Position numbers and translations under genes: made by a program
Source of the DNA: a virus
DNA: 60,655 nt
Reading direction: 5' to 3' (one strand)
IMG/VR virus record: IMGVR_UViG_3300025671_000067
Coordinates: 1 to 60,655 of that record
The notes under the pieces: generated by a model
The model's input: the letters and a program-made list of their open reading frames with translations, nothing else
What the model was told of the DNA's origin: nothing
The model's database searches: none
Shown here: positions 2,769-60,655 of the stretch, in pieces
How the letters are laid out: each line of letters starts with the position of its first letter
Numbering within the stretch: the stretch's first letter is position 1

Positions 2769-4304
2769 ATGGAAATCATTAACAACAAGGCGCTTCTTTT
2801 GCGCCTTCGTAACCCTCAAAAAGTAACGACTGTTATACCCAACAGTAAAGAGCTTGCAGATAATAAAGTAGTTGTGAAGTGGGGTATCGACGAAGCACAA
2901 GTTCTAAAGAACCTTAACATAAAGGTACCGTCGCCCATCGAAGGTAAGTACAAGTGGACAGGTAAATACGCTCCCTTCGAGCATCAGAAGACTACCGCTT
3001 CTTTCCTTACGCTTAACAAACGTGCCTTCTGTTTCAATGAACAAGGTACCGGTAAGACTGCTAGTGCAATCTGGGCAGCAGACTATTTAATGCAAGAAGG
3101 TTATGTTCGACGTGCATTGGTTATCTGCCCCCTGTCTATCATGGACTCCGCGTGGAAGGCTGATCTGTTTACGTTCGCTATGCACAGGTCGGTAGACGTA
3201 GCGTATGGGTCAGCAGAAAGACGTAAGCAGATAATTAATGCGGGCAGTGATTTCGTAGTAATAAATTATGATGGTGTTGAGATCGTATCGGACGCCATCA
3301 CCAACAACGATTTCGATCTGATCATTGTGGATGAAGCGACTCACTACAAGAACGCGCAGACCAAACGTTGGAAAACACTTAATGCGCTCGTCACTCCTGA
3401 CAAGTGGTTGTGGATGATGACTGGTACACCCGCAGCTCAAAGTCCTTTGGACGCATACGGCATAGCTAAACTTGTTAACCCATCAGCAGTGCCTAGATTC
3501 TTCGGTACGTTCCGTGATCGTGTGATGCACAAGATAACTAACTTCAGGTGGATACCGAAAGAGGACGCTACCGACACAGTGTTTAGAGTGTTGCAACCCG
3601 CAATCCGTTTTACCAAGGAGGAATGCTTAGACCTTCCAGATATGGTGTACACCAAACGTGAGGTAGAGCTTACTCGACAGCAGATCAAGTATTACAAAAT
3701 CCTGAAAGACCGCATGGTAATGGATGCCGCTGGCGAACAAGTTACAGCAGCAAATGCGGCGGTTAACATGAACAAGTTACTGCAAATATCTTGTGGCGCA
3801 GTGTACACCGACAAGGGTGAGTCACTAGAGTTCGACATCAAGCATCGCTATAAAGTCCTACGTGAAGTCATCGATGAGTCCAGTAAGAAGGTGTTGGTGT
3901 TCGTACCTTTTAAGCACGTCATCGACATGCTGGTGGAGAAGTTAAAAAGTGATGGGATTACTACCGAAATTATTAGAGGGGACGTATCGGCTCCTAATCG
4001 AACTGACATATTCAAACGATTTCAGATCAGTGATGACCCCCGCGTTCTAGTAATCCAACCCCAAGCTGCGGCACACGGTGTAACGCTGACAGCAGCAAAT
4101 ACGGTGGTCTGGTGGGGGCCAACAAGCTCACTAGAAACCTATGCCCAAGCCAACGCTAGGGTGCACAGATCGGGTCAAGACCATAAGTGTACTGTGGTAC
4201 AGCTACAAGGGTCTGCAATAGAAAAACACGTTTATAGAATGCTTGATAACAAAATAAACATACATACAAAAATTATAGACTTATACAACGAAATACTTGC
4301 ATAA
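2769..4304 (+). CDS. SNF2/DEAD-like superfamily 2 helicase
   Basis: ATP-driven DNA translocase or helicase of the SNF2 branch. In order: a Q-like region (FEHQKTTASF), Walker A NEQGTGKTAS at about residues 90-100, motif II as IVDEATHYKN, motif III as MTGTPAAQSP, and in the second RecA-like lobe motif V/VI as ARVHRSGQ. About 511 aa is normal for phage-encoded SNF2-like proteins without accessory domains. I choose the ATG at 2769 because TAGGAGGA sits just upstream. A GTG at 2700 would add 23 residues but has no ribosome-binding site and would run through a hairpin. It probably supports replication-fork remodelling or replication start. Confidence 0.9.
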   Translation: MEIINNKALLLRLRNPQKVTTVIPNSKELADNKVVVKWGIDEAQVLKNLNIKVPSPIEGKYKWTGKYAPFEHQKTTASFLTLNKRAFCFNEQGTGKTASAIWAADYLMQEGYVRRALVICPLSIMDSAWKADLFTFAMHRSVDVAYGSAERRKQIINAGSDFVVINYDGVEIVSDAITNNDFDLIIVDEATHYKNAQTKRWKTLNALVTPDKWLWMMTGTPAAQSPLDAYGIAKLVNPSAVPRFFGTFRDRVMHKITNFRWIPKEDATDTVFRVLQPAIRFTKEECLDLPDMVYTKREVELTRQQIKYYKILKDRMVMDAAGEQVTAANAAVNMNKLLQISCGAVYTDKGESLEFDIKHRYKVLREVIDESSKKVLVFVPFKHVIDMLVEKLKSDGITTEIIRGDVSAPNRTDIFKRFQISDDPRVLVIQPQAAAHGVTLTAANTVVWWGPTSSLETYAQANARVHRSGQDHKCTVVQLQGSAIEKHVYRMLDNKINIHTKIIDLYNEILA

Positions 4305-4354: not shown

Positions 4355-4762
4355 ATGGAAGAGGATAGTCATTTGTCTGTGGATAAGCTAACCAAGGTTT
4401 ATCTAAAGATAACTGCTAAACGTTCTGAATTAAAGAAGGCTTTTGATGAGGAATATCAACGCCTTTCAGATGCGCGTGACAAAATCAAGTTAGCTTTGTT
4501 AGAGCATTGCAAAGAGCATAACGTCAATAGCGTGAGGACTGAGGAGGGGCTGTTTTACCGAACGGTTAAGCAGAGCTTCTGGACGAACGACTGGGAATCG
4601 ATGTACGAGTTCATACTCGATAACAAGGTACCTGAGTTCTTCGACAAACGCCTCAATCAGAAGAACGTGCGTGAGTTCCTAGAGGCAAACCCCGATAAGT
4701 TACCGAAAGGGCTTAATTCGGATTCAACCTACACTATCTCTGTAAGGAGACCCAAAAAATGA
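4355..4762 (+). CDS. Conserved-type hypothetical protein, 135 aa
   Basis: Not recognised with confidence. The first half is a predicted long helix or coiled coil rich in Lys/Glu. The second half carries WTNDWESMYEFILDNKVPEFF and ends in a basic tail. A strong GAAGGAG precedes the ATG. The stop overlaps the next start as ATGA. Its position between the helicase and the ssDNA-binding protein points to a replication or recombination accessory role. Resemblance in size and helix content to Gam-like DNA-end binders was considered, but no diagnostic motif was found. Confidence 0.75.
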   Translation: MEEDSHLSVDKLTKVYLKITAKRSELKKAFDEEYQRLSDARDKIKLALLEHCKEHNVNSVRTEEGLFYRTVKQSFWTNDWESMYEFILDNKVPEFFDKRLNQKNVREFLEANPDKLPKGLNSDSTYTISVRRPKK

Positions 4763-5019
4763 GTAGCCCCTTTGTCCCTATCGCAGATGTTGCAAAACAT
4801 TTCAAGGTAAACCAAGCCACCATACGTGGTTGGTTGAAAGCAGGGATCATCCCCAAAAGTACCTATATCCATATAGGTTCAACCTATCGGTTCAATCTGG
4901 CCGCTATCACCGAGGCTTTGACTGCCGCTGAAGATGAGGAAGTTAAACCAAATAGTTGGAATGACATCAGCGGTGATGAAGAACCCGTCCCTCAACTAGA
5001 AACAGATGAAGACTATTAA
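4759..5019 (+). CDS. Excisionase/MerR-like helix-turn-helix protein
   Basis: Small DNA-binding protein of 86 aa. Residues 3-52 (VPIADVAKHFKVNQATIRGWLKAGIIP and on to YRFNLAAITEAL) have the winged HTH pattern of excisionase/MerR-type domains: helix, turn, the recognition helix ATIRGWLK, then a short wing. The C-terminal 35 residues are acidic and probably disordered. With no integrase in the window it is more likely a transcription or replication regulator than a true excisionase. It overlaps both neighbours (ATGA before, TAATG after), so it is part of one operon. Confidence 0.75.
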   Translation: MSSPFVPIADVAKHFKVNQATIRGWLKAGIIPKSTYIHIGSTYRFNLAAITEALTAAEDEEVKPNSWNDISGDEEPVPQLETDEDY

Positions 5020-6515: not shown

Positions 6516-9347
6516 ATGGAAACAGCTATATTTTTAAAGGAGGCGCTACCGAAAAACGGGTCGTATTGTGTATTTGCATCCAAATCATCTGCCGATAAAA
6601 GATCACAGCAGTTCTTTGATTCCGTAGATGACCTGATTGATGCGGCACAGGACTTGGATACAAAGGGTTATGATGTTTATTTCGCACTAGCTAGTTTCAA
6701 GGAAGCTAACTCACGTAAAGTAGATAACGTACAATCTTTGAAGTCGTTTTTTCTAGATCTTGATTGTGGCCCATCGAAAGATTTTGTATCGCAGAAGGAA
6801 GCGATATCTCAACTAAAGACATTTTGTACTAAATTTAATTTGCCACGCCCTTTAATGATTAACTCTGGGCGTGGTGTCCACGTTTATTGGGTGTTATCCG
6901 AAGCCGTACCTTTAGATGACTGGCTACCTGTAGCCACTAAATTGAAGCAGTTGTGTGCGGATAATAACTTTTTAGCAGATCCCGCTGTCACGGCGGACGC
7001 TGCACGAGTGTTGCGGGTACCCCAAACCCATAATTACAAACCAGACATCCCAGCAGAGGTAGACTTTGTTGGGGCACACCTACCCAATCTTGTTGACTTT
7101 GATTTGTTTTCGAGATCGCTCGGAAATGATGTGATACCAGTTCCCACAAAGAGACTGGATGGAGCCAACGCGGTGATGAACGCAGCGTTGTCAAACCGCG
7201 AGTATCGTTTCAAAGATATCCTACGCAAGACCAATCAAGGAGATGGCTGCACCCAAATACACAATGCGTTAACTAACCCTAACGAGGTATCAGAACCTAT
7301 TTGGCGGGGCGTATTGTCGGTACTGAAAGCGTGTAGCGATGGGTCCAGAGAAAAAGCTCACAAGATCTCTAAGGGATATGACGGGTATGACCCAGAAGAG
7401 ACCGACGCTAAATGGGATAAGTTAACTTCTGACAAACGATACACTTGCGCTAGGTTTGAAGAGATTCAGCCAGAAACGTGTTTACACTGCCCAAATAGGG
7501 GTAAATATAGATCGCCTTTGCATATCGGAAAGCGTGTAAAGGAAGCTACAGAGGAAGAATACGTAGTTGAGGCACCTGCTTTAGATCTACCTAACACCCC
7601 TATTAACACATTCGTTATACCTAAATATCCTTACCCCTACCTACGCGGCTCTAACGGCGGCGTTTATATACGCTCACAGGATTCGGAGGGGAACGAGAAC
7701 GAAGAACGCATTTACCATAACGACCTCTATGTAGTTAAACGCATAGTCGATATAGAACTAGGGGAGTCTATAGTGTTGCGTTTGCACTTACCAAGAGATG
7801 GTGTGCGGGAATTTACGGTACCGCTTACGTCTGTAACTTCTAGAGAAGAACTTAGAAAGAGCATGTCCATGCACGGGGTGGCTATAGCGAAGGTAGATAA
7901 ACTTATGGAATACGTAACAACGTGGGTAAATGAACTACAGGAGAAAGAGATGGCAGATAAAGCTTACAGGCAGTTTGGCTGGATCGATGACGAAGCCACA
8001 GGGTTTGTACTCGGTAACCAGATAATTTTGAAAGATGAGGTGCGGTTTAACCCACCGTCGAAGACTACTATGAGTCTGTTCCCGTACTTTCAACCTGAAG
8101 GTACCTTAGACGAGTGGCGACAAGTTATTGATTTCTACAACCGGCCCGGATTTCAATTACACCAATTTGCTACCTGTGCGGGGTTCGGTTCGGCACTTGT
8201 GCATTTTGTAGATGACATAGCGTGTGCAGCACTACATATTTACAGTAAAGACTCTGGGCTAGGTAAGACCACCGCCATGAGAGCAGCAGCGTCTATATGG
8301 GGTGACCCCGGCGAGCTAGTGATTAATCAAGGCGATACGGGCAACAGCCAGATGAACCGATCCGAGGTGCTGCATAGTTTGCCCTTACTAATTGACGAAC
8401 TTACAAACGCCAAAAGCGAGGCATTGAGTGCCTTGGCTCTGCAATTTACCACTGGTAAACAGAGGAACAGGTTAGTTAGCGGAGGGAACGTAGAGCGGGC
8501 ACGAGGGGAATCATGGAGCTTACTTGCGATAACAACAGGTAATACTAGCTTTATAGAACGTATCCGCTTGAAGAAAGATAACCCTAATGCGGAGGCACAG
8601 CGCATATTAGAAGTACGTGCAGAAAAGCTCTTTAAGGGTTCTTCTGACAAATCAGAAACTGACGAATTCAGTCGCGCATTAGGTAAATGTTACGGGCATG
8701 CTGGACCTATATTCGTTCAGTATGTGATCAACAATGTTGAAGAGGTGAAACGTCTGATCAAAGAGATACAGATCAGGGTAGATAGACGAGCAGAGCTTTC
8801 CTCAGAAAACCGATTCTGGTCAGTGTATGCAACTATGACTTTGGCGGGGGCAGTCATTGCTAGTCAATTAGACCTAATTCGGTTTGACATTCCTGCGCTT
8901 ACAAATTGGGCCATAGATATGCTTAACGATAACAAGTCGAGGGCACAGGATATGGCGGTATCTATTGAACAAACGTTGAATGAGTATGTTAATGAACACT
9001 ACGACAACATACTGCGGATCAAAAGCACCAGCGACCTTCGTAAGCAGGACGGTACGCCTATGGAGTCAATTATTCTCCCAGAAGCTATACCCCGAAACCG
9101 GTTGGTGGCTAGGTATGAGACTGATATAAATAAATTATACCTAGTACCTAAACCGTTGCGGATATGGTGTGGGGAACAGCAGATAAACTATGCGGCATTT
9201 GTACATGACCTTACTGAAAAACTGGGGGCCAAGCGTATAAAGATGCGGCTAAGCAAGGGTACGCCATTAAATATGCCCCCGACAGATGTGTTAGTAGTTC
9301 AGTTCTCTGGAGCTGGTGATGAAGAAGGGAGTATTGAGAACGTATGA
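6516..9347 (+). CDS. Primase-helicase fusion (DUF927-like ATPase domain)
   Basis: A 943-aa replication protein that probably makes primers and unwinds DNA. The N-terminal third is archaeo-eukaryotic primase-like: an acidic pair in FFLDLDCGPSK and NSGRGVHVYWVL, the usual substrate-binding strand. A Cys-rich patch near residue 320 (TCARFEEIQPETCLHCPNRG) may bind zinc. The C-terminal half has Walker A SKDSGLGKTTAM at about residues 577-588 and Walker B LPLLIDEL at about 622-629, followed by TGN sensor-like residues, as in DUF927 superfamily helicases. The frame offers no other good start near the AAAGGAGG inside codons 7-9, so the ATG at 6516 is kept. Its end overlaps the next gene by about 32 bases. 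Confidence 0.88.
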   Translation: METAIFLKEALPKNGSYCVFASKSSADKRSQQFFDSVDDLIDAAQDLDTKGYDVYFALASFKEANSRKVDNVQSLKSFFLDLDCGPSKDFVSQKEAISQLKTFCTKFNLPRPLMINSGRGVHVYWVLSEAVPLDDWLPVATKLKQLCADNNFLADPAVTADAARVLRVPQTHNYKPDIPAEVDFVGAHLPNLVDFDLFSRSLGNDVIPVPTKRLDGANAVMNAALSNREYRFKDILRKTNQGDGCTQIHNALTNPNEVSEPIWRGVLSVLKACSDGSREKAHKISKGYDGYDPEETDAKWDKLTSDKRYTCARFEEIQPETCLHCPNRGKYRSPLHIGKRVKEATEEEYVVEAPALDLPNTPINTFVIPKYPYPYLRGSNGGVYIRSQDSEGNENEERIYHNDLYVVKRIVDIELGESIVLRLHLPRDGVREFTVPLTSVTSREELRKSMSMHGVAIAKVDKLMEYVTTWVNELQEKEMADKAYRQFGWIDDEATGFVLGNQIILKDEVRFNPPSKTTMSLFPYFQPEGTLDEWRQVIDFYNRPGFQLHQFATCAGFGSALVHFVDDIACAALHIYSKDSGLGKTTAMRAAASIWGDPGELVINQGDTGNSQMNRSEVLHSLPLLIDELTNAKSEALSALALQFTTGKQRNRLVSGGNVERARGESWSLLAITTGNTSFIERIRLKKDNPNAEAQRILEVRAEKLFKGSSDKSETDEFSRALGKCYGHAGPIFVQYVINNVEEVKRLIKEIQIRVDRRAELSSENRFWSVYATMTLAGAVIASQLDLIRFDIPALTNWAIDMLNDNKSRAQDMAVSIEQTLNEYVNEHYDNILRIKSTSDLRKQDGTPMESIILPEAIPRNRLVARYETDINKLYLVPKPLRIWCGEQQINYAAFVHDLTEKLGAKRIKMRLSKGTPLNMPPTDVLVVQFSGAGDEEGSIENV

Positions 9348-53346: not shown

Positions 53347-54900
53347 TTAGTAGTATCCACCGCGTCGTTGTTTGAAATACCTTTGTTCTTCAGGTTCATC
53401 AGTTGGCAAGCGTATGAATCCACCTTGTCTAAAACGCATTAACGCCATGACAGTAGAGTCAACCAAGTCATCATGGCTCATAAACGGGAATCCAGCAATC
53501 TCTTCGACTACTTCCTCTGCCCAACGAGTTTCGGGTATCCATACCAGACCCGATGCTACAATATCAGCTACAGAATTTAAACGCGCTAGTTTATCACCAG
53601 ATCCTCTATGCGGTGTATATTCTTGCACAGGTAGTCCCATCCTACGCATCTCTTGATAGAGTGCGGTACCTGCGCTCTTCTTCTCCACAATAAACGCATC
53701 AGGCTCCCAATCTGCATACTCTTCCATAGCTAGCTGCTTTAGTTCAGGAAACTCTAATCGCTGTTTGATGCTGTTAAGTAGGATGATGTTATAGGCATCT
53801 ACCTCTTCGTTAAAGAACACACCCCACGTAGTCAGCGCGGTGAAGTCCGCACGGTTATGTTTTTCTGCCGCTGCGTCCAACGACATGATGATGTACTCAC
53901 AACTAGGCGGGGTATCCCTACCCCAATGTTGCCACCATTCTCGCTTAATTAACGCAGCTTCTTCTGCTGTTGGTTCCTGTTGGTACTGCGCGTTCCACTG
54001 GAATGTCGGCATCGACGCCTTAGTCCGTAGTAAAGCGTCTAAATCAAAAAACTCCGGCCATAGGGGTTTTTGAATCGGTTTACCTGTATCCTTATCTTCA
54101 AGGTCTAGTATGGCTGGAAATTCTATTACCTCAAAGCTATCGGCCCGATCATTCTGGGTCATATCTCTAATTACACGCCCAGTTAGATCATCCATGTGCC
54201 ATCGAGTCTGGATAATCGCTACGCGGCCTCCCGGCATCAAACGAGTACGAGCACCGAACGTATACCATTCATACGCCTTCTCAAACACCGAAAAGTTACC
54301 GTTAATTACGTCCTGCTCTGAGTGAGGATCGTCAACCAGTAACAAATCCGCACCACGACCTGCTAACGCAGAACCTACGCCGCACGCGTAGTACTCACCA
54401 CCTACATTAGTATTCCAACGGCCAGCCGACTTAGAGTCAACCGCAAGTGACACGGTAGGAAAGATAGATTTATAGGAGTCGGTGTTAATTAAGTTCCTTA
54501 CTTTCCTACCAAAGTCTACTGCGAGGTCCGTGGTGTGTGACACCATCATGACCTTCTTATTAGGGTTCCGCCCCAGAAACCACGCCGGAAAGAATATAGA
54601 TACTAACTGTGATTTTCCGTGGCGGGGCGGAATATTAACGCAGATACGATCTTTATCGCCCCGCTCAATTGCCATGAGCATATCTGCCAAAATTCGGTGA
54701 TGCTGCCCTACAATGTAGTCAGGCTGCATCGCTTTACAGAACTCTATTAGATCGTCATAAGCTAACTTGTTCTGCTTACGTGTACTTAGTTCATCGACTA
54801 GACGATCAATTTCTACTACTTCTTCGGGGGTGTAGGCATCAAGATTATCCAACATCACTTGGATTTCTTCTTCTGTGAAGTCTAATGCGACTTCACTCAT
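53347..54900 (-). CDS. terL: Terminase large subunit
   Basis: ATP-driven packaging motor with a nuclease domain. Walker A is IPPRHGKSQLVS at about residue 95, Walker B is LLLVDDPHSE, and the coupling motif lies in the loop that follows. The RNase H-like nuclease begins with IIMSLDAAAEKHNRADF (catalytic Asp), then VEKKSAGTALYQEM, and ends with MSHDDLVDSTVMALMRF (acidic pair). About 517 aa, as usual. I use the ATG at 54900, giving MSEVALDF; an upstream ATG at 54918 is possible. The start overlaps the small terminase end. Confidence 0.95.
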   Translation of the reverse strand: MSEVALDFTEEEIQVMLDNLDAYTPEEVVEIDRLVDELSTRKQNKLAYDDLIEFCKAMQPDYIVGQHHRILADMLMAIERGDKDRICVNIPPRHGKSQLVSIFFPAWFLGRNPNKKVMMVSHTTDLAVDFGRKVRNLINTDSYKSIFPTVSLAVDSKSAGRWNTNVGGEYYACGVGSALAGRGADLLLVDDPHSEQDVINGNFSVFEKAYEWYTFGARTRLMPGGRVAIIQTRWHMDDLTGRVIRDMTQNDRADSFEVIEFPAILDLEDKDTGKPIQKPLWPEFFDLDALLRTKASMPTFQWNAQYQQEPTAEEAALIKREWWQHWGRDTPPSCEYIIMSLDAAAEKHNRADFTALTTWGVFFNEEVDAYNIILLNSIKQRLEFPELKQLAMEEYADWEPDAFIVEKKSAGTALYQEMRRMGLPVQEYTPHRGSGDKLARLNSVADIVASGLVWIPETRWAEEVVEEIAGFPFMSHDDLVDSTVMALMRFRQGGFIRLPTDEPEEQRYFKQRRGGYY

Positions 54901-55519
54901 CGTCATACCCCTCATCATCAGGCTTTTCTATAGGTTTTAACCCCAATTTCTCATCCAAATCGATGATTTCCCCCTCTAAAACCACGGGAGCGTTCAATTC
55001 TTGGGGTGGATTTACTAATTTCTCTAGCTTTAAGCGCAGTTTTGCCCGTAAGTCATCCGTTGACTGATGAGTAATAGTCACTTCTGACTTTTCTGCAAAC
55101 AAACTTACATCAGATATCTTACCTAACAGCTCTAGTGCACGAATACGTACCCTTGGGTCTGGGTTCTCTGACTCTAACAGGAGCTTGTTTGTAACTAAAT
55201 GACGGATCTGGACTGCGCTTTCCGCAATAGAGTGCCCAAACTCTTGCAATATATTGCCTGTTAGGATTAAAGACGCGGGGGTCATTTTTGCGGTTTTAGC
55301 TAAAGATACTTTCTTAGACGTGCTTGCTGGGTTTTCAGCATAGTCTGCTGCTATACCTGCAGCTACATCCTTATCCGCTATGGTTGGGGTAATGTTTAAC
55401 CCATGTTCGGACAAAAGCATCGCTGTATTACACGCAGCCTCGGCTCGGATGCGAAGATCCGGGTATGGGATGTTGTCAGCTAGCGGTATTCCCACTTCTG
55501 GCGTAACAATCACTGTCAT
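54893..55519 (-). CDS. terS: Small terminase-like protein, 208 aa
   Basis: Likely recognises the packaging site and recruits TerL. It is assigned by position, directly ahead of TerL and first of the late operon, and by its helix-rich sequence with a central region TPASLILTGNILQEFGHSIAESAVQIRHLVTNKLLLE and a Cys-free acidic end, DDEGYDDE. No strong HTH is obvious, so this is a moderate assignment. The start lacks a clear ribosome-binding site. It is the most upstream late gene on this strand. Confidence 0.7.
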   Translation of the reverse strand: MTVIVTPEVGIPLADNIPYPDLRIRAEAACNTAMLLSEHGLNITPTIADKDVAAGIAADYAENPASTSKKVSLAKTAKMTPASLILTGNILQEFGHSIAESAVQIRHLVTNKLLLESENPDPRVRIRALELLGKISDVSLFAEKSEVTITHQSTDDLRAKLRLKLEKLVNPPQELNAPVVLEGEIIDLDEKLGLKPIEKPDDEGYDDE

Positions 55520-55837: not shown

Positions 55838-55861
55838 GCCAGTATGGAATTCCATACTGGC
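55838..55861. promoter_or_regulatory. Palindrome copy 1 (perfect 24-bp inverted repeat)
   Basis: The core AGTATGGAATTCCATACT (55841-55858) is extended to a perfect 24-bp palindrome. It ends 29 bases before the ATG at 55891. First of four copies in this region; a likely binding site for a dimeric regulator or an mRNA hairpin. Confidence 0.75.
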
Positions 55862-56493: not shown

Positions 56494-56499
56494 CCTATG

Positions 56500-56525
56500 G
56501 CCCCTCTTCGGAGGGGCTTTTTTTT
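56500..56525 (+). terminator. Intrinsic terminator with UUCG loop
   Basis: GCCCCTC (56500-56506), loop TTCG, GAGGGGC (56511-56517), then eight T. A strong terminator closing the 200-aa gene and shielding the repeat region that follows from transcription. Confidence 0.92.
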
Positions 56526-56536
56526 GTCTCAAATTT

Positions 56537-56566
56537 TTGATACCAGTTCCCGTAGTAGCGCGGCGC
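56537..56566 (+). repeat. 30-bp direct repeat, copy 1
   Basis: Begins TTGATACCAGTTCCCGTAGT. Identical to copy 2 at 56591-56620 except for one base (G to A at position 26 of the unit). The copies are 54 bases apart, start to start. Confidence 0.92.
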
Positions 56567-56590
56567 ATCATGTATTTTCCCACTAACAAA

Positions 56591-56620
56591 TTGATACCAG
56601 TTCCCGTAGTAGCGCAGCGC
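56591..56620 (+). repeat. 30-bp direct repeat, copy 2
   Basis: Second copy of the unit at 56537-56566, one mismatch. It lies just upstream of palindrome copy 2. Confidence 0.92.
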
Positions 56621-56628
56621 GTAAAGCC

Positions 56629-56646
56629 AGTATGGAATTCCATACC
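56629..56646. promoter_or_regulatory. Palindrome copy 2
   Basis: AGTATGGAATTCCATACC: identical to the other copies across the 16-bp inner palindrome GTATGGAATTCCATAC, with one mismatch at the outer base. It lies between the direct repeats and the first AATGTTC array, far from any gene start. Confidence 0.75.
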
Positions 56647-56649
56647 AGC

Positions 56650-56688
56650 AATGTTCCCGTAATGTTCCGTAATGTTCCGTGAATGTTC
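56650..56688 (+). repeat. Phased AATGTTC array, forward
   Basis: AATGTTC at 56650, 56661, 56671 and 56682, i.e. spacings of 11, 10 and 11 bases, with the extended unit roughly GTAATGTTCC. One turn of the helix apart, so a protein could bind along one face. Confidence 0.85.
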
Positions 56689-56724
56689 GGTAATTCAGCA
56701 CTCGTTTTACTACATTATATTCCG

Positions 56725-56758
56725 TGTAATTTGATGTAGTCTGGTGTAGTTGGGTGTA
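56725..56758 (+). repeat. 10-bp phased TGTA array
   Basis: TGTA at 56725, 56735, 56745 and 56755, exactly 10 bases apart, with the extended unit GGTGTAGT(T/C). A second set of helically phased repeats, directly before the AT-rich core. Confidence 0.8.
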
Positions 56759-56778
56759 ATGTGTGGCAGTCAAAAAGC

Positions 56779-56826
56779 TCTATATATATATATTTATTAA
56801 TAATGTTCTATAAATAAAAATATACT
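56779..56826. other. AT-rich core, candidate DNA-unwinding element
   Basis: An alternating TA tract (56781-56792) followed by TTTATTAATAATG and ATAAATAAAAATATA: nearly pure A and T over about 45 bases, with one AATGTTC inside at 56802. Easily melted DNA between the repeat arrays. Confidence 0.6.
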
Positions 56827-56987
56827 TGGGCCTGTTTTGTTCAACCTATCCCATAACATGTTTTCACATAAATGTTCCCAAAAAACTTTCCTCTTCCGAA
56901 GTAAGAGAAAGCTAGACTCCATTTCTCAGTTTTACAGAACATTCGCTACATTCTTTGATTTTCAAATAGTTACGCCATTTTCGGGCC

Positions 56988-57015
56988 GAACATTACCGGA
57001 ACATTCAAGAACATT
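56988..57015 (-). repeat. Phased AATGTTC array, reverse
   Basis: GAACATT at 56988, 56999 and 57009 (spacings 11 and 10 bases), the inverse of the forward array and with the same extended consensus GTAATGTTC(C/G)G. A single further copy is at 56937. The two arrays face each other across the AT-rich core. Confidence 0.85.
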
Positions 57016-57061
57016 TATTGTTTGACATCGTAATACACAATACTTGACAACAATCCATCAT

Positions 57062-57090
57062 TTGACATAGGACTCTATCTATGCGATAAT
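57062..57090 (+). promoter_or_regulatory. Strong sigma-70-type promoter
   Basis: Perfect -35 TTGACA (57062-57067), a spacer of 17, and -10 GATAAT (57085-57090) with the TGC just before it forming an extended -10. Two more TTGACA lie upstream, at 57022 and 57044. Expected start is near 57097, so palindrome copy 3 (57128-57149) would be inside the untranslated leader. Drives the cassette at 57182-60655. Confidence 0.85.
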
Positions 57091-57127
57091 GTGTTTGTGA
57101 GTGAGGGTATTGCGCCTTTATTTCACC

Positions 57128-57149
57128 CCAGTATGGAATTCCATACTGG
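57128..57149. promoter_or_regulatory. Palindrome copy 3 (perfect 22-bp inverted repeat)
   Basis: Core AGTATGGAATTCCATACT at 57130-57147, extended by CC and GG. It ends 32 bases before the ATG at 57182, about the same distance as copy 1 from its gene. Since it lies downstream of the likely transcription start, it could be a road-block operator or an mRNA hairpin. Confidence 0.78.
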
Positions 57150-57181: not shown

Positions 57182-58102
57182 ATGGATGTTCAACCCACAT
57201 TGCAAGTAGTACCAGAGGTAGCGACACCATCTATTCAGTCAAGCGCCATGCTCGTTGAGTTCAGCGCGTCTGTGTGGACAGGTCGTAAGAAAGACAAACA
57301 CGCGTCAGCAGACGTTACCTTTCGTAACAATGCAAACAAAGGCACAGCCAATGTGAGTAAGAAATTACTTGGTGACTGTGACGAGCTGGATGCGGTACAG
57401 AAGTTCGTCGGTATCGTGCGGAACGAGCACTATCGCATGACAATGCCGTGGTCAGATCTGGGTCAACGTCTGATACCCACCGCATTGTTCTTCGACTACC
57501 GACAGCGAATGTCACAGCATGAGCAAGAGTTCGATCGTTTGGTGCAAGCGTTCCTTGATGTGTACGATTGGGAAGTGATCCAAGCCAAGACCAAGCTCGG
57601 TGATTTGTTCAACGATACGGATTACCTATCGCGGCACGCGCTCGACAAAAAGTTCCGATTCAGTGTGACAGCAGTACCCGTGCCTGAGTCCGGTGACTTT
57701 CGTATTGACTTGGCGAACGAGCAAGCAAGCATCCTGAAAACAGAATATCAGGAACACTACGAACGACAGATAAACCGAGCGATGGGTGACGTGTTCAATC
57801 GCACGCGCACGTATCTCGAACGTCTGTATAACAGTCTTGACTACAACGAAGGTGAGCGGCGCAAGAAGCTCGTGCAGGGTACGTTCGACAACGTGATGGA
57901 CATGATTGACATGCTCAAAGCGTGCAACCTAACGGGTGACACCCAGATGGAAGCGATACGCTTAAAGCTCGAAGATCAGTTCCGTGGTATCGGTAGGTTA
58001 CCCATATCACCAGAGGCGCTCAAAGAAGATAGTCACCTGCGTACCGAAACAAGATTGGTAATTGATGATGTCCTTAAGTCATTACCGTCATTGGACATGT
58101 AG
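57182..58102 (+). CDS. DUF3150-like protein, 306 aa
   Basis: First gene of the MoxR/VWA cassette. Contains LVEFSASVWTGRKKDKHASADV and a helix-rich body with DYRQRMSQHEQEFDRLVQAFLDVY, YLERLYNSLDYNEGERRKK and the basic end HLRTETRLVIDDVLKSL. Sequence and gene neighbourhood recall DUF3150 proteins, which are encoded next to MoxR-type ATPases. No catalytic motif. I use the ATG at 57182, eight bases after AGGAGG; an upstream start at 57101 would translate through the palindrome. The strong promoter at 57062-57090 feeds it. Confidence 0.75.
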   Translation: MDVQPTLQVVPEVATPSIQSSAMLVEFSASVWTGRKKDKHASADVTFRNNANKGTANVSKKLLGDCDELDAVQKFVGIVRNEHYRMTMPWSDLGQRLIPTALFFDYRQRMSQHEQEFDRLVQAFLDVYDWEVIQAKTKLGDLFNDTDYLSRHALDKKFRFSVTAVPVPESGDFRIDLANEQASILKTEYQEHYERQINRAMGDVFNRTRTYLERLYNSLDYNEGERRKKLVQGTFDNVMDMIDMLKACNLTGDTQMEAIRLKLEDQFRGIGRLPISPEALKEDSHLRTETRLVIDDVLKSLPSLDM

Positions 58103-58456: not shown

Positions 58457-58459
58457 CAC

Positions 58460-58477
58460 AGTATGGAATTCCATACT
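58460..58477. promoter_or_regulatory. Palindrome copy 4
   Basis: AGTATGGAATTCCATACT, starting 3 bases after the stop of the 104-aa gene and 172 bases ahead of the MoxR gene. The 193-base gap also holds the self-complementary AGCCGGCT at 58571-58578. No clear promoter was found in it. Confidence 0.72.
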
Positions 58478-58649
58478 AACAGGGGTGGGGCGTTAACCGG
58501 ATTTTGCCCTACCCTAGTGTTTTACTCAGTAACGTGTTTTCGACAAGTAGGCTATATCGCCAATGTCGGAAGCCGGCTTTTACTATTTTTTAGTGTTTCA
58601 TGTGGTAACAAAACAGTGGTAAACAACAGTCCAAGAAGGAGGACACAAC

Positions 58650-59744
58650 ATGGCTATGACAGCTAAAAGGATGTACGCGCAGTCACTTACTGCGTGCGAA
58701 GATATGATCGTTGCGATGGGTACGCAGCAGACCATACTGATGCAGGGTCACATGGGTATTGGTAAGACATCGATACTCAAATCTCTCGCGGAACGTCTAC
58801 CGAATCACATACCCTGCTACTTTGACTGTACGACCAAGGATCTGGGTGACATCTCGATCCCCAACGTCATGCAGTTAGATGGCGCGGATTTTGTGCAGTA
58901 CGTACCCAATGAGGAGTTTGGCGTACACACGGGCAAGCCGGTCATCCTGATGATCGATGAGTTCGGTAAGGCCAACCCAGCAGTTAAGAATGCGTTGTTA
59001 CGTGTGATCCTCGAACGGCAGGTGGGTAACAAGCCGTTACCCAAAGATAGTATTGTGATTGCGACGACTAACTTGGGTGAGGAGGGTGTCGGTGACTTGT
59101 TACCCGCACACGCACTCAATCGCCTGACCGTCATCGAGGTAGCCAAACCCACGCCTGACGAGTGGGTCGAGTGGGGTATCGCCAACGAGGTCGATCCCAT
59201 CGTGCTGGCATGGGCGCGTAACAACGACAAAGCGTTCGCAGACTTCCGTGATGTAGAAGACCCTGACGATAACGACTTTATCTATCATCCACGCTCACAG
59301 CGTGCAGCGTTTGTTACACCTCGCTCGCTCGAAGCGGCCAGTCATTGGTTCAAAGCGCGGGATCAGTTCGGTGACAGATCGTTGCAAGCGGCACTCATCG
59401 GTACCATCGGTGAAGCAGCGGGTGGTGACATGATGGCGTTCGCTCGACTAGCGGAGCAGTTGCCATCCATCGACTCAATCAAGAATGATCCGCTCAGCGC
59501 GATAGTGCCAACCAGTGCGGGTGCAGTCATGATGGTTGTGTATAAGGTGTTATCGACACTCGAACGTGACTGGGTTGACCAGTGTATGGACTACATGTTG
59601 CGCCTATCAAAAGAAGCGCAGGGTGTGTTCGCCAATGGTGTACGTGCGAAGAAGTACGCCAAGCAATCTATCGTCATGCAGAATCGCAAGTTCACGCAGT
59701 GGGCGATGGATAACAATTACTTGTTTACAGCAGACGTTAAGTAA
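58650..59744 (+). CDS. MoxR-type AAA+ ATPase
   Basis: AAA+ ATPase of the MoxR/CobS kind, which remodels protein complexes with a VWA-domain partner. Walker A is GHMGIGKTS at residues 33-41, Walker B is ILMIDEFGKANPAVK, sensor 1 is VIATTNLGEEG, and the arginine-finger region lies around LLPAHALNRLTVIEV. A helical lid completes it. At 364 aa it is the normal size. GGAGG precedes the ATG, and the VWA protein gene follows 11 bases after its stop. Similar genes in phages have been labelled cobS, but nothing here points to cobalamin synthesis. Confidence 0.9.
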   Translation: MAMTAKRMYAQSLTACEDMIVAMGTQQTILMQGHMGIGKTSILKSLAERLPNHIPCYFDCTTKDLGDISIPNVMQLDGADFVQYVPNEEFGVHTGKPVILMIDEFGKANPAVKNALLRVILERQVGNKPLPKDSIVIATTNLGEEGVGDLLPAHALNRLTVIEVAKPTPDEWVEWGIANEVDPIVLAWARNNDKAFADFRDVEDPDDNDFIYHPRSQRAAFVTPRSLEAASHWFKARDQFGDRSLQAALIGTIGEAAGGDMMAFARLAEQLPSIDSIKNDPLSAIVPTSAGAVMMVVYKVLSTLERDWVDQCMDYMLRLSKEAQGVFANGVRAKKYAKQSIVMQNRKFTQWAMDNNYLFTADVK

Positions 59745-59755
59745 GGAGGACTGAC

Positions 59756-60250
59756 ATGTTCGCACTTAATGTAACCTTGACCGCTGAACAGCGGATAGAG
59801 AAAGCCGTGATGTCTATCATGGCGCATGACACGTACGTGGGTTTGTCTAGCGTGCTGATGATTGGTACTCGCACCGTCGAGGATAATGTACCTACCGCGT
59901 GCACCAACGGGCGTGATGAGATGTATGGGCGTGCGTTTGTCGATTCGCTCACCGATGCTGAGTTACGTTTCGTGATATTACATGAGGCGTATCACAAGAT
60001 GTACAGCCATCTGACAACGTGGAAACATCTTTACGACAAGCACGCGTTCTTGGCTAACGTGTCGTGTGACTACGTGATCAACGTGCAGCTAGTTGATGGC
60101 GATGCGGGTGAAGGGTTCATTGTGATGCCTGATATCGGGTTGTTCGATGCCGAGTATCGCAACATGGACTCAGCGCAAGTGTTCCACAAAATCTACGAGT
60201 CGCTTGACGAATCCCGAGGATACCGATACCGGTGGGTTTGCATACGGTAA
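59756..60250 (+). CDS. DUF2201-type metallopeptidase/VWA protein, N-terminal part
   Basis: Probable partner of the MoxR ATPase. Zinc-peptidase motif HEAYH at residues 76-80 within RFVILHEAYHKMYSHL, followed by LANVSCDYVINVQL, as in the N-terminal domain of DUF2201 proteins. The expected VWA domain is not in this frame: the frame ends at 60250, and the continuation is in the +1 frame (60210-60655). The last 13 residues here (SRGYRYRWVCIR) look like out-of-frame sequence. Start at ATG 59756 behind AAGGAGG. Confidence 0.78.
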   Translation: MFALNVTLTAEQRIEKAVMSIMAHDTYVGLSSVLMIGTRTVEDNVPTACTNGRDEMYGRAFVDSLTDAELRFVILHEAYHKMYSHLTTWKHLYDKHAFLANVSCDYVINVQLVDGDAGEGFIVMPDIGLFDAEYRNMDSAQVFHKIYESLDESRGYRYRWVCIR

Positions 60251-60655
60251 GCCGCTCGATGACCACGATTGGGAGGGTGCTGAAGCGTTAACCGCTGAGG
60301 AGAAGCGTGACCTTGAACGTGAGATTGACGAAGCCATACGTCAGGGTGCGCTAGTTGCTGGCAAGTTGGGTAGTGGTGGTGCGCGTGACCTCGAAGCGTT
60401 ACTCAAACCACAAATTAATTGGCGTGACGCACTGCGTGAGTTCATTGCTACTACGTGTGCCGGTAACGACTTTTCCACATACGCACGACCCAACCGGCGT
60501 TATCTCAGCACAGGTGTGTATCTGCCCAGTGGTATCAGTCAGCAGGTCAAGGAGTTGGTGATCGCCATCGATACGTCAGGTTCTATCCGTCAGCGTGACT
60601 TGACGGTGTTCTTGTCTGAGATCAAATCCATCTGCGATACCGTGCATCCCGAAGC
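60210..60655 (+). CDS. VWA-like domain of the same protein, +1 frame, cut by window end
   Basis: From 60210 the +1 frame reads NPEDTDTGGFAYGKPLDDHD and on to LVIAIDTSGSIRQRDL, the DxSGS metal-binding motif (MIDAS) of a VWA domain. The region ends with the window. The frame is open from 60126 and lacks a ribosome-binding site, so it is the continuation of the 59756 gene. The shift fits a +1 slip at UCC-CGA (60212-60217), or an indel error. Either a programmed frameshift, a mutation or a sequencing artefact. Confidence 0.72.

Follow-up and report, generated by a model that had tools for sequence, protein, structure and literature searches.

What role could be served by two mirrored sets of one heptamer, placed around an AT-rich core in a gene-free segment of a phage genome? 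The question is raised by the IMG/VR virus record IMGVR_UViG_3300025671_000067, the 60,655 nucleotides of which form the window analysed here, and in which copies of AATGTTC and of its reverse complement GAACATT are crowded between positions 56650 and 57015. A preliminary description had read this segment as an iteron-type origin of replication. That reading is still the best explanation and is partly supported overall: repeats and spacing proved to be conserved, whereas the skew check that had been proposed alongside was of no help. The segment 56650-57015 is probably the replication origin of the phage, of the kind found in Staphylococcus aureus pathogenicity islands (SaPIs) and phage-inducible chromosomal islands (PICIs), and we read it in this way mainly because of the array architecture in combination with the homology between a helicase of the phage and SaPIbov1 Rep.

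Opposed, phased arrays around an AT-rich core

The window holds 19 copies of AATGTTC (both strands), 10 of which fall inside the 366 bp of the segment and 9 over the other 60 kb, the latter number being close to what shuffles of the whole window yield by chance (mean 8.84). No 7-mer reached more than 5 copies in 1000 dinucleotide shuffles of the segment, versus the 10 AATGTTC/GAACATT seen, and the density thus exceeds chance. On recount, all coordinates given earlier for AATGTTC, GAACATT and TGTA were correct: AATGTTC starts at 56650, 56661, 56671, 56682, 56802 and 56871, and GAACATT at 56937, 56988, 56999 and 57009. Four forward copies with 11/10/11 bp spacing make up the left array (56650-56688, plus strand), which is kept in relatives, and three inverted copies with 11/10 bp spacing make up the right array (56988-57015, minus strand), which is likewise recovered in an alignment of relatives, such that two opposed arrays, phased at about 10.5 bp, lie on either side of an AT-rich core. 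This core, a TA tract at 56779-56826 and a candidate unwinding element, is with 92% AT the most AT-rich 48-bp stretch of the 60.6-kb window. The four TGTA words at 56725, 56735, 56745 and 56755 (56725-56758, plus strand) are indeed spaced exactly 10 bp apart, but outside the closest clade this second array is not kept.

Upstream of the gene for a DUF3150 protein, IMG/VR relatives down to about 46% protein identity repeat the layout with some variation, having four copies in forward and three or four in reverse orientation. Across 17 aligned sequences the motif columns are conserved to 88%, versus 57% for the other core columns, i.e. repeats and spacing are retained while the remaining sequence drifts, which is what the preliminary description had asked of related phages. 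The same alignment separates the single copies that had been thought to fill in the interval: AATGTTC at 56802-56808 (plus strand), in the right part of the TA tract, is conserved (88-100% per column) and the inverted copy GAACATT at 56937-56943 (minus strand) mostly so, whereas AATGTTC at 56871 is not conserved and probably reflects chance.

To cover IMG/VR more broadly, we scanned it for three spaced copies of AATGTTC while ignoring genes, and pooled these motif-only finds with gene-led ones, including loci first fetched via the DUF3150 gene. The pooled set comprises at least 139 opposed-array loci, at least 121 of them non-duplicate. Among the matches listed, nearly all opposed arrays sit between terS/terL and the DUF3150/MoxR early genes (terL neighbours 112, DUF3150 118 and MoxR 101 of the 139), same-strand spacings cluster at 8-11, 19-22, 31-33 and 42 bp (54% being 9-11 bp), and in 83% of 121 arrays the 50-bp stretch with the highest AT content at the locus falls inside the array or at its edge. 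When bacterial and archaeal genomes were scanned in the same way, the runs obtained were almost all one-directional and mostly short. The array element is, on these grounds, solidly established as real and conserved. Two observations stand apart: dense opposed AATGTTC clusters occur at 3143-3379 of a contig from a metagenome-assembled genome of an uncultured bacterium (L238), without the phage genes searched for, and two viral contigs (L132 and L185) carry 14 copies of AATGTTC in a single direction, unlike the opposed arrays.

Relatives that do not have AATGTTC keep the layout with another word, namely AATGTTA in many of them, AATGTCG in G005 and still others in L051, L063 and L070. The copies within a genome drift together as a set, and such a joint change of all copies is expected of a binding protein and its sites. 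A motif-blind scan, i.e. a search for opposed, phased hexamers of any sequence, returned only the array locus in eight genomes: G000, G001, G002, G005 (as ATGTCG), G010, G012, G026 and the isolate Pseudomonas phage Rollin (as TATGCA), where opposed TATGCAA arrays lie at about 260-550 (L376). Its single hit in Pag-Yong1 was unrelated, and several other genomes, some of which have less regular arrays, gave no hit; arrays were not found in Pag-Yong1, DSL-LC04 and RHph_TM3_14A.

Candidate readers of the array

The array is likely read by one of two proteins, either the C-terminal domain of a primase-helicase or a small helix-turn-helix (HTH) protein. Both had been named as possible binders at the outset, and they are also the best candidates found in the present analysis, as predictions. 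The primase-helicase (6516-9347, plus strand; 943 aa) combines an N-terminus resembling archaeo-eukaryotic primases (AEP) with a DUF927 domain, and is a candidate initiator of the SaPIbov1-Rep-like type by profile as well as fold matches. The profile matches are SaPIbov1 Rep (8tch) and SCCmec Cch (5dgk), with E 2.7e-21 and E 7e-20, respectively, and a structure model (mean pLDDT 74.5) retrieves 8tch, 5dgk and the S-2L PrimPol domain. The DUF927 helicase Cch of SCCmec is itself related to SaPIbov1 Rep, and the Rep proteins of SaPIs recognise their iterons through the C-terminal domain, apparently as two hexamers (PMC7581432). The model, at medium confidence, has winged-helix-like secondary structure at residues 865-929. 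A relative of the protein is present in every searched opposed-array record of at least 55 kb and in most shorter ones; the records in which it is missing are at most 43 kb long or have no opposed array.

The HTH protein (4759-5019, plus strand; 86 aa) is a BldC/Xis-like winged-HTH protein and a candidate array binder. It matches HTH_17 above the Pfam cut-off, and the best fold matches of its model are BldC, RdfS and Xis (probability 0.99-1.00, E-values only 0.03-0.06). BldC lines up head to tail on direct repeats of 9 bp (PMC5859096), and head-to-tail oligomers are described for RdfS as well (PMC11963761). These small winged-HTH proteins are regulators or excisionases, whereas we do no more than propose a role at an origin. 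The HTH proteins of the phages share an acidic C-terminal end (DEDY/DEDV-like) that is reminiscent of partner-binding tails.

Covariation with the motif was evaluated against predictions for the primase C-terminus and for HTH residues that were set down before the new records were looked at. The 83-aa HTH protein is unusually diverged between the closely related genomes G003 (AATGTTC) and G004 (AATGTTA), at 73% identity versus 92-99% for its direct neighbours, and 4 of 82 HTH residues are shared with the AATGTTA genome G024 against the phylogeny, compared with 82 of 9133 overall. Residue 46 of the HTH protein, which in the model is the last residue of the second wing strand, is K or R as predicted in the new AATGTTA records G051, G052, G062 and G063, and also in G016. 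In the AATGTTC set it is N, D, S, C or A in 20 of 24 genomes and R in the other four (G010, G036, G037 and G043), although the genomes in these counts are related and the counts not independent; K/R is therefore not sufficient for AATGTTA. The words themselves are not always uniform, as the array of G051 is mixed with AATGTAA densest, and TATGTAG is densest in G024 in this comparison, though that genome is listed as AATGTTA in the survey of relatives. When the primase tree is read by eye, one clade shows three or more switches of the motif, and residue 46 changes at each of them. A column scan places HTH residues 29 and 46 among the top columns, as it does many primase columns that track phylogeny. 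Two other predictions failed, namely N/Q at HTH residue 29 in AATGTTA genomes (G052 has G, G062 D and G051 K, and several AATGTTC genomes do not have G) and an LPLTH-type signature in the primase C-terminus of AATGTTA genomes (contradicted by G021). Overall, we regard it as suggestive that residue 46 partly co-varies with the motif, while the covariation of the primase-helicase C-terminal domain is not consistent.

A probable origin weighed against its rivals

As we picture it, the two opposed sets of AATGTTC iterons, with their sites on the same side of the helix, would flank an AT-rich unwinding element, to which the PrimPol-DUF927 helicase would be recruited, plausibly loaded as a head-to-head pair of hexamers. 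The helicase would then melt the TA core, prime, and start bidirectional replication. The iterons could be read by its C-terminal domain or by the winged-HTH protein, lined up head to tail on each array. A version that we offer only tentatively, and hold to be possible rather than probable, involves both proteins: a filament of the winged-HTH protein on each array would pass the AT core to a double hexamer of the helicase, and the protein and its iterons would co-evolve, making replication lineage-specific.

PICI origins always have an AT-rich region with a set of iterons on either side (PMC6092414), and this is the arrangement seen here. The likeness extends to the SaPIbov1-Rep-family DUF927 helicase, to an AEP primase that is joined to or accompanies it, and to an iteron sequence that differs from element to element. 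The present element differs in belonging to a phage genome of about 60 kb instead of a satellite, in its consensus AATGTTC, and in the separate winged-HTH protein that partly co-varies with the motif. The statement in the preliminary description that no phage origin with this consensus had been described holds insofar as neither the consensus nor a SaPI/PICI-type origin in a tailed-phage genome was found in the papers searched, but the architecture does have its precedent in the islands (PMC6092414). Phage P4, with ori/crr and its alpha protein, likewise pairs a primase-helicase initiator with a repeat-type origin that a winged-helix domain recognises (PMC4234260). The alpha protein, however, has a Toprim-type primase where the present one is an AEP PrimPol, the repeat sequence differs, and the second cis region of P4 was not found here. 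Origins of the lambda type and of iteron plasmids have direct repeats beside an AT-rich element as well, though not two opposed arrays. At those origins the O or Rep protein loads DnaB, whereas the type of helicase found here is self-loading.

Several findings weigh against the origin. The array lies between the late and early arms, more than 10 kb from the helicase gene in relatives, whereas the SaPI origin lies directly downstream of rep, and for this reason we prefer to say that the element works like a PICI origin instead of being one. The covariation favours the HTH protein over the helicase, unlike in the SaPI model, and G007 and Rhizobium phage RHph_TM3_14A carry a homologous primase-helicase, yet no array was found in them. 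Nor is the array marked by GC skew: the minimum lies about 1.7 kb to its left in the window, at the switch of coding strand which it follows, and about 1.6-2.5 kb to its left in most genomes, mostly at a divergent gene junction, while fourfold-degenerate sites gave no consistent signal of the arms. The skew thereby neither supports nor refutes an origin. Finally, a sigma70-like promoter (TTGACA-17-GATAAT, plus strand, 57063-57092), aligned in relatives and placed before the rightward early genes, adjoins the right array.

This promoter, which is kept in close relatives, also leads to the strongest rival, i.e. that the arrays are operators on which HTH filaments or a loop regulate rightward transcription from 57063-57092 and perhaps leftward transcription too. 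The resemblance of the HTH candidate to the regulator BldC and to excisionases fits such early-gene control (PMC5859096), but we consider it unlikely, as a regulon would give several clusters where the scanned genomes have a single one, and early-gene control does not account for the mirror arrays around a conserved AT core. Moreover, the array motifs do not overlap the promoter, the distance from array to DUF3150 varies (0.6-1.5 kb or more, and several kb in L100, L123 and L190), and a crude promoter pattern beside the array, in mixed orientations, occurs on one side in 49 of 118 loci and in 17 of 118 on the opposite side.

A packaging site (pac or cos), where a TerS-type protein would bind the phased repeats and the terminase would cut nearby, is less probable again, even though presumed terS and terL lie at a distance of 1-2 kb from the array, and the HTH protein is weakly similar to terminase small subunits (phrog_57, and the packaging structure 7lwr in the fold search). 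Contig ends (n=172) do not cluster at the array, the overlapping ends of some near-complete relatives fall at unrelated places, and the mirror symmetry of the element would give packaging no direction. The presumed terS (assigned by position), moreover, is 97% identical between one AATGTTC and one AATGTTA genome, with no motif-discordant residues. Least probable is a centromere-like partition site or other nucleoprotein scaffold, e.g. for a plasmid-like stage: short phased repeats occur in such sites too, but no partition ATPase or partner gene was recognised nearby among the genes checked and an AT core is not expected.

If the segment is indeed an origin that works like those of the PICIs, it provides a predicted replication origin with named candidate initiators for a large and mostly uncultured phage family, and since naturally occurring variants of the motif come with matching proteins, recognition is open to direct testing.

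Genome context and further sequence elements

The record has no terminal repeats and is apparently cut inside genes at both ends, and the genome is therefore incomplete; the ends fall inside a DNA polymerase gene (1-4) and a VWA-type gene (60250-60655). Left of the array lie the leftward genes terL (53347-54918) and presumed terS (54893-55519), the latter named by position only and without a match in the family library or the PDB. To the right follow the genes for the DUF3150 protein (57182-58102), a MoxR-like ATPase (58650-59744) and an HNH nuclease. Genes at the opposite end of the record encode DNA polymerase, exonuclease, helicase, the HTH protein, an SSB-like (single-stranded DNA-binding) protein and the primase-helicase. 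At the nucleotide level the segment has no similarity to phage isolates, but the Pelagibacter phages HTVC023P and HTVC027P are among the TerL relatives (about 46%), and it is on such isolates that our assignment of the family as presumably marine rests.

Within the segment no conserved gene was found, and the terminator described on one side of it corresponds to a hairpin and T run, GGCCCCTCTTCGGAGGGGCTTTTTTTT, at about 56498-56526 (plus strand), which ends the preceding gene and is aligned in close relatives. Between this terminator-like element and the left array, a tandem 30-bp repeat, TTGATACCAGTTCCCGTAGTAGCGC, occupies 56537-56566 and 56591-56620; it is found left of the array in close relatives as well, in variable copy number. 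A 22-bp palindrome, CCAGTATGGAATTCCATACTGG, occurs at 55839-55860, 56627-56648, 57128-57149 and 58458-58479, mostly close to gene starts. In relatives its sequence differs but the copies change together, and it may be a separate operator or an RNA hairpin.
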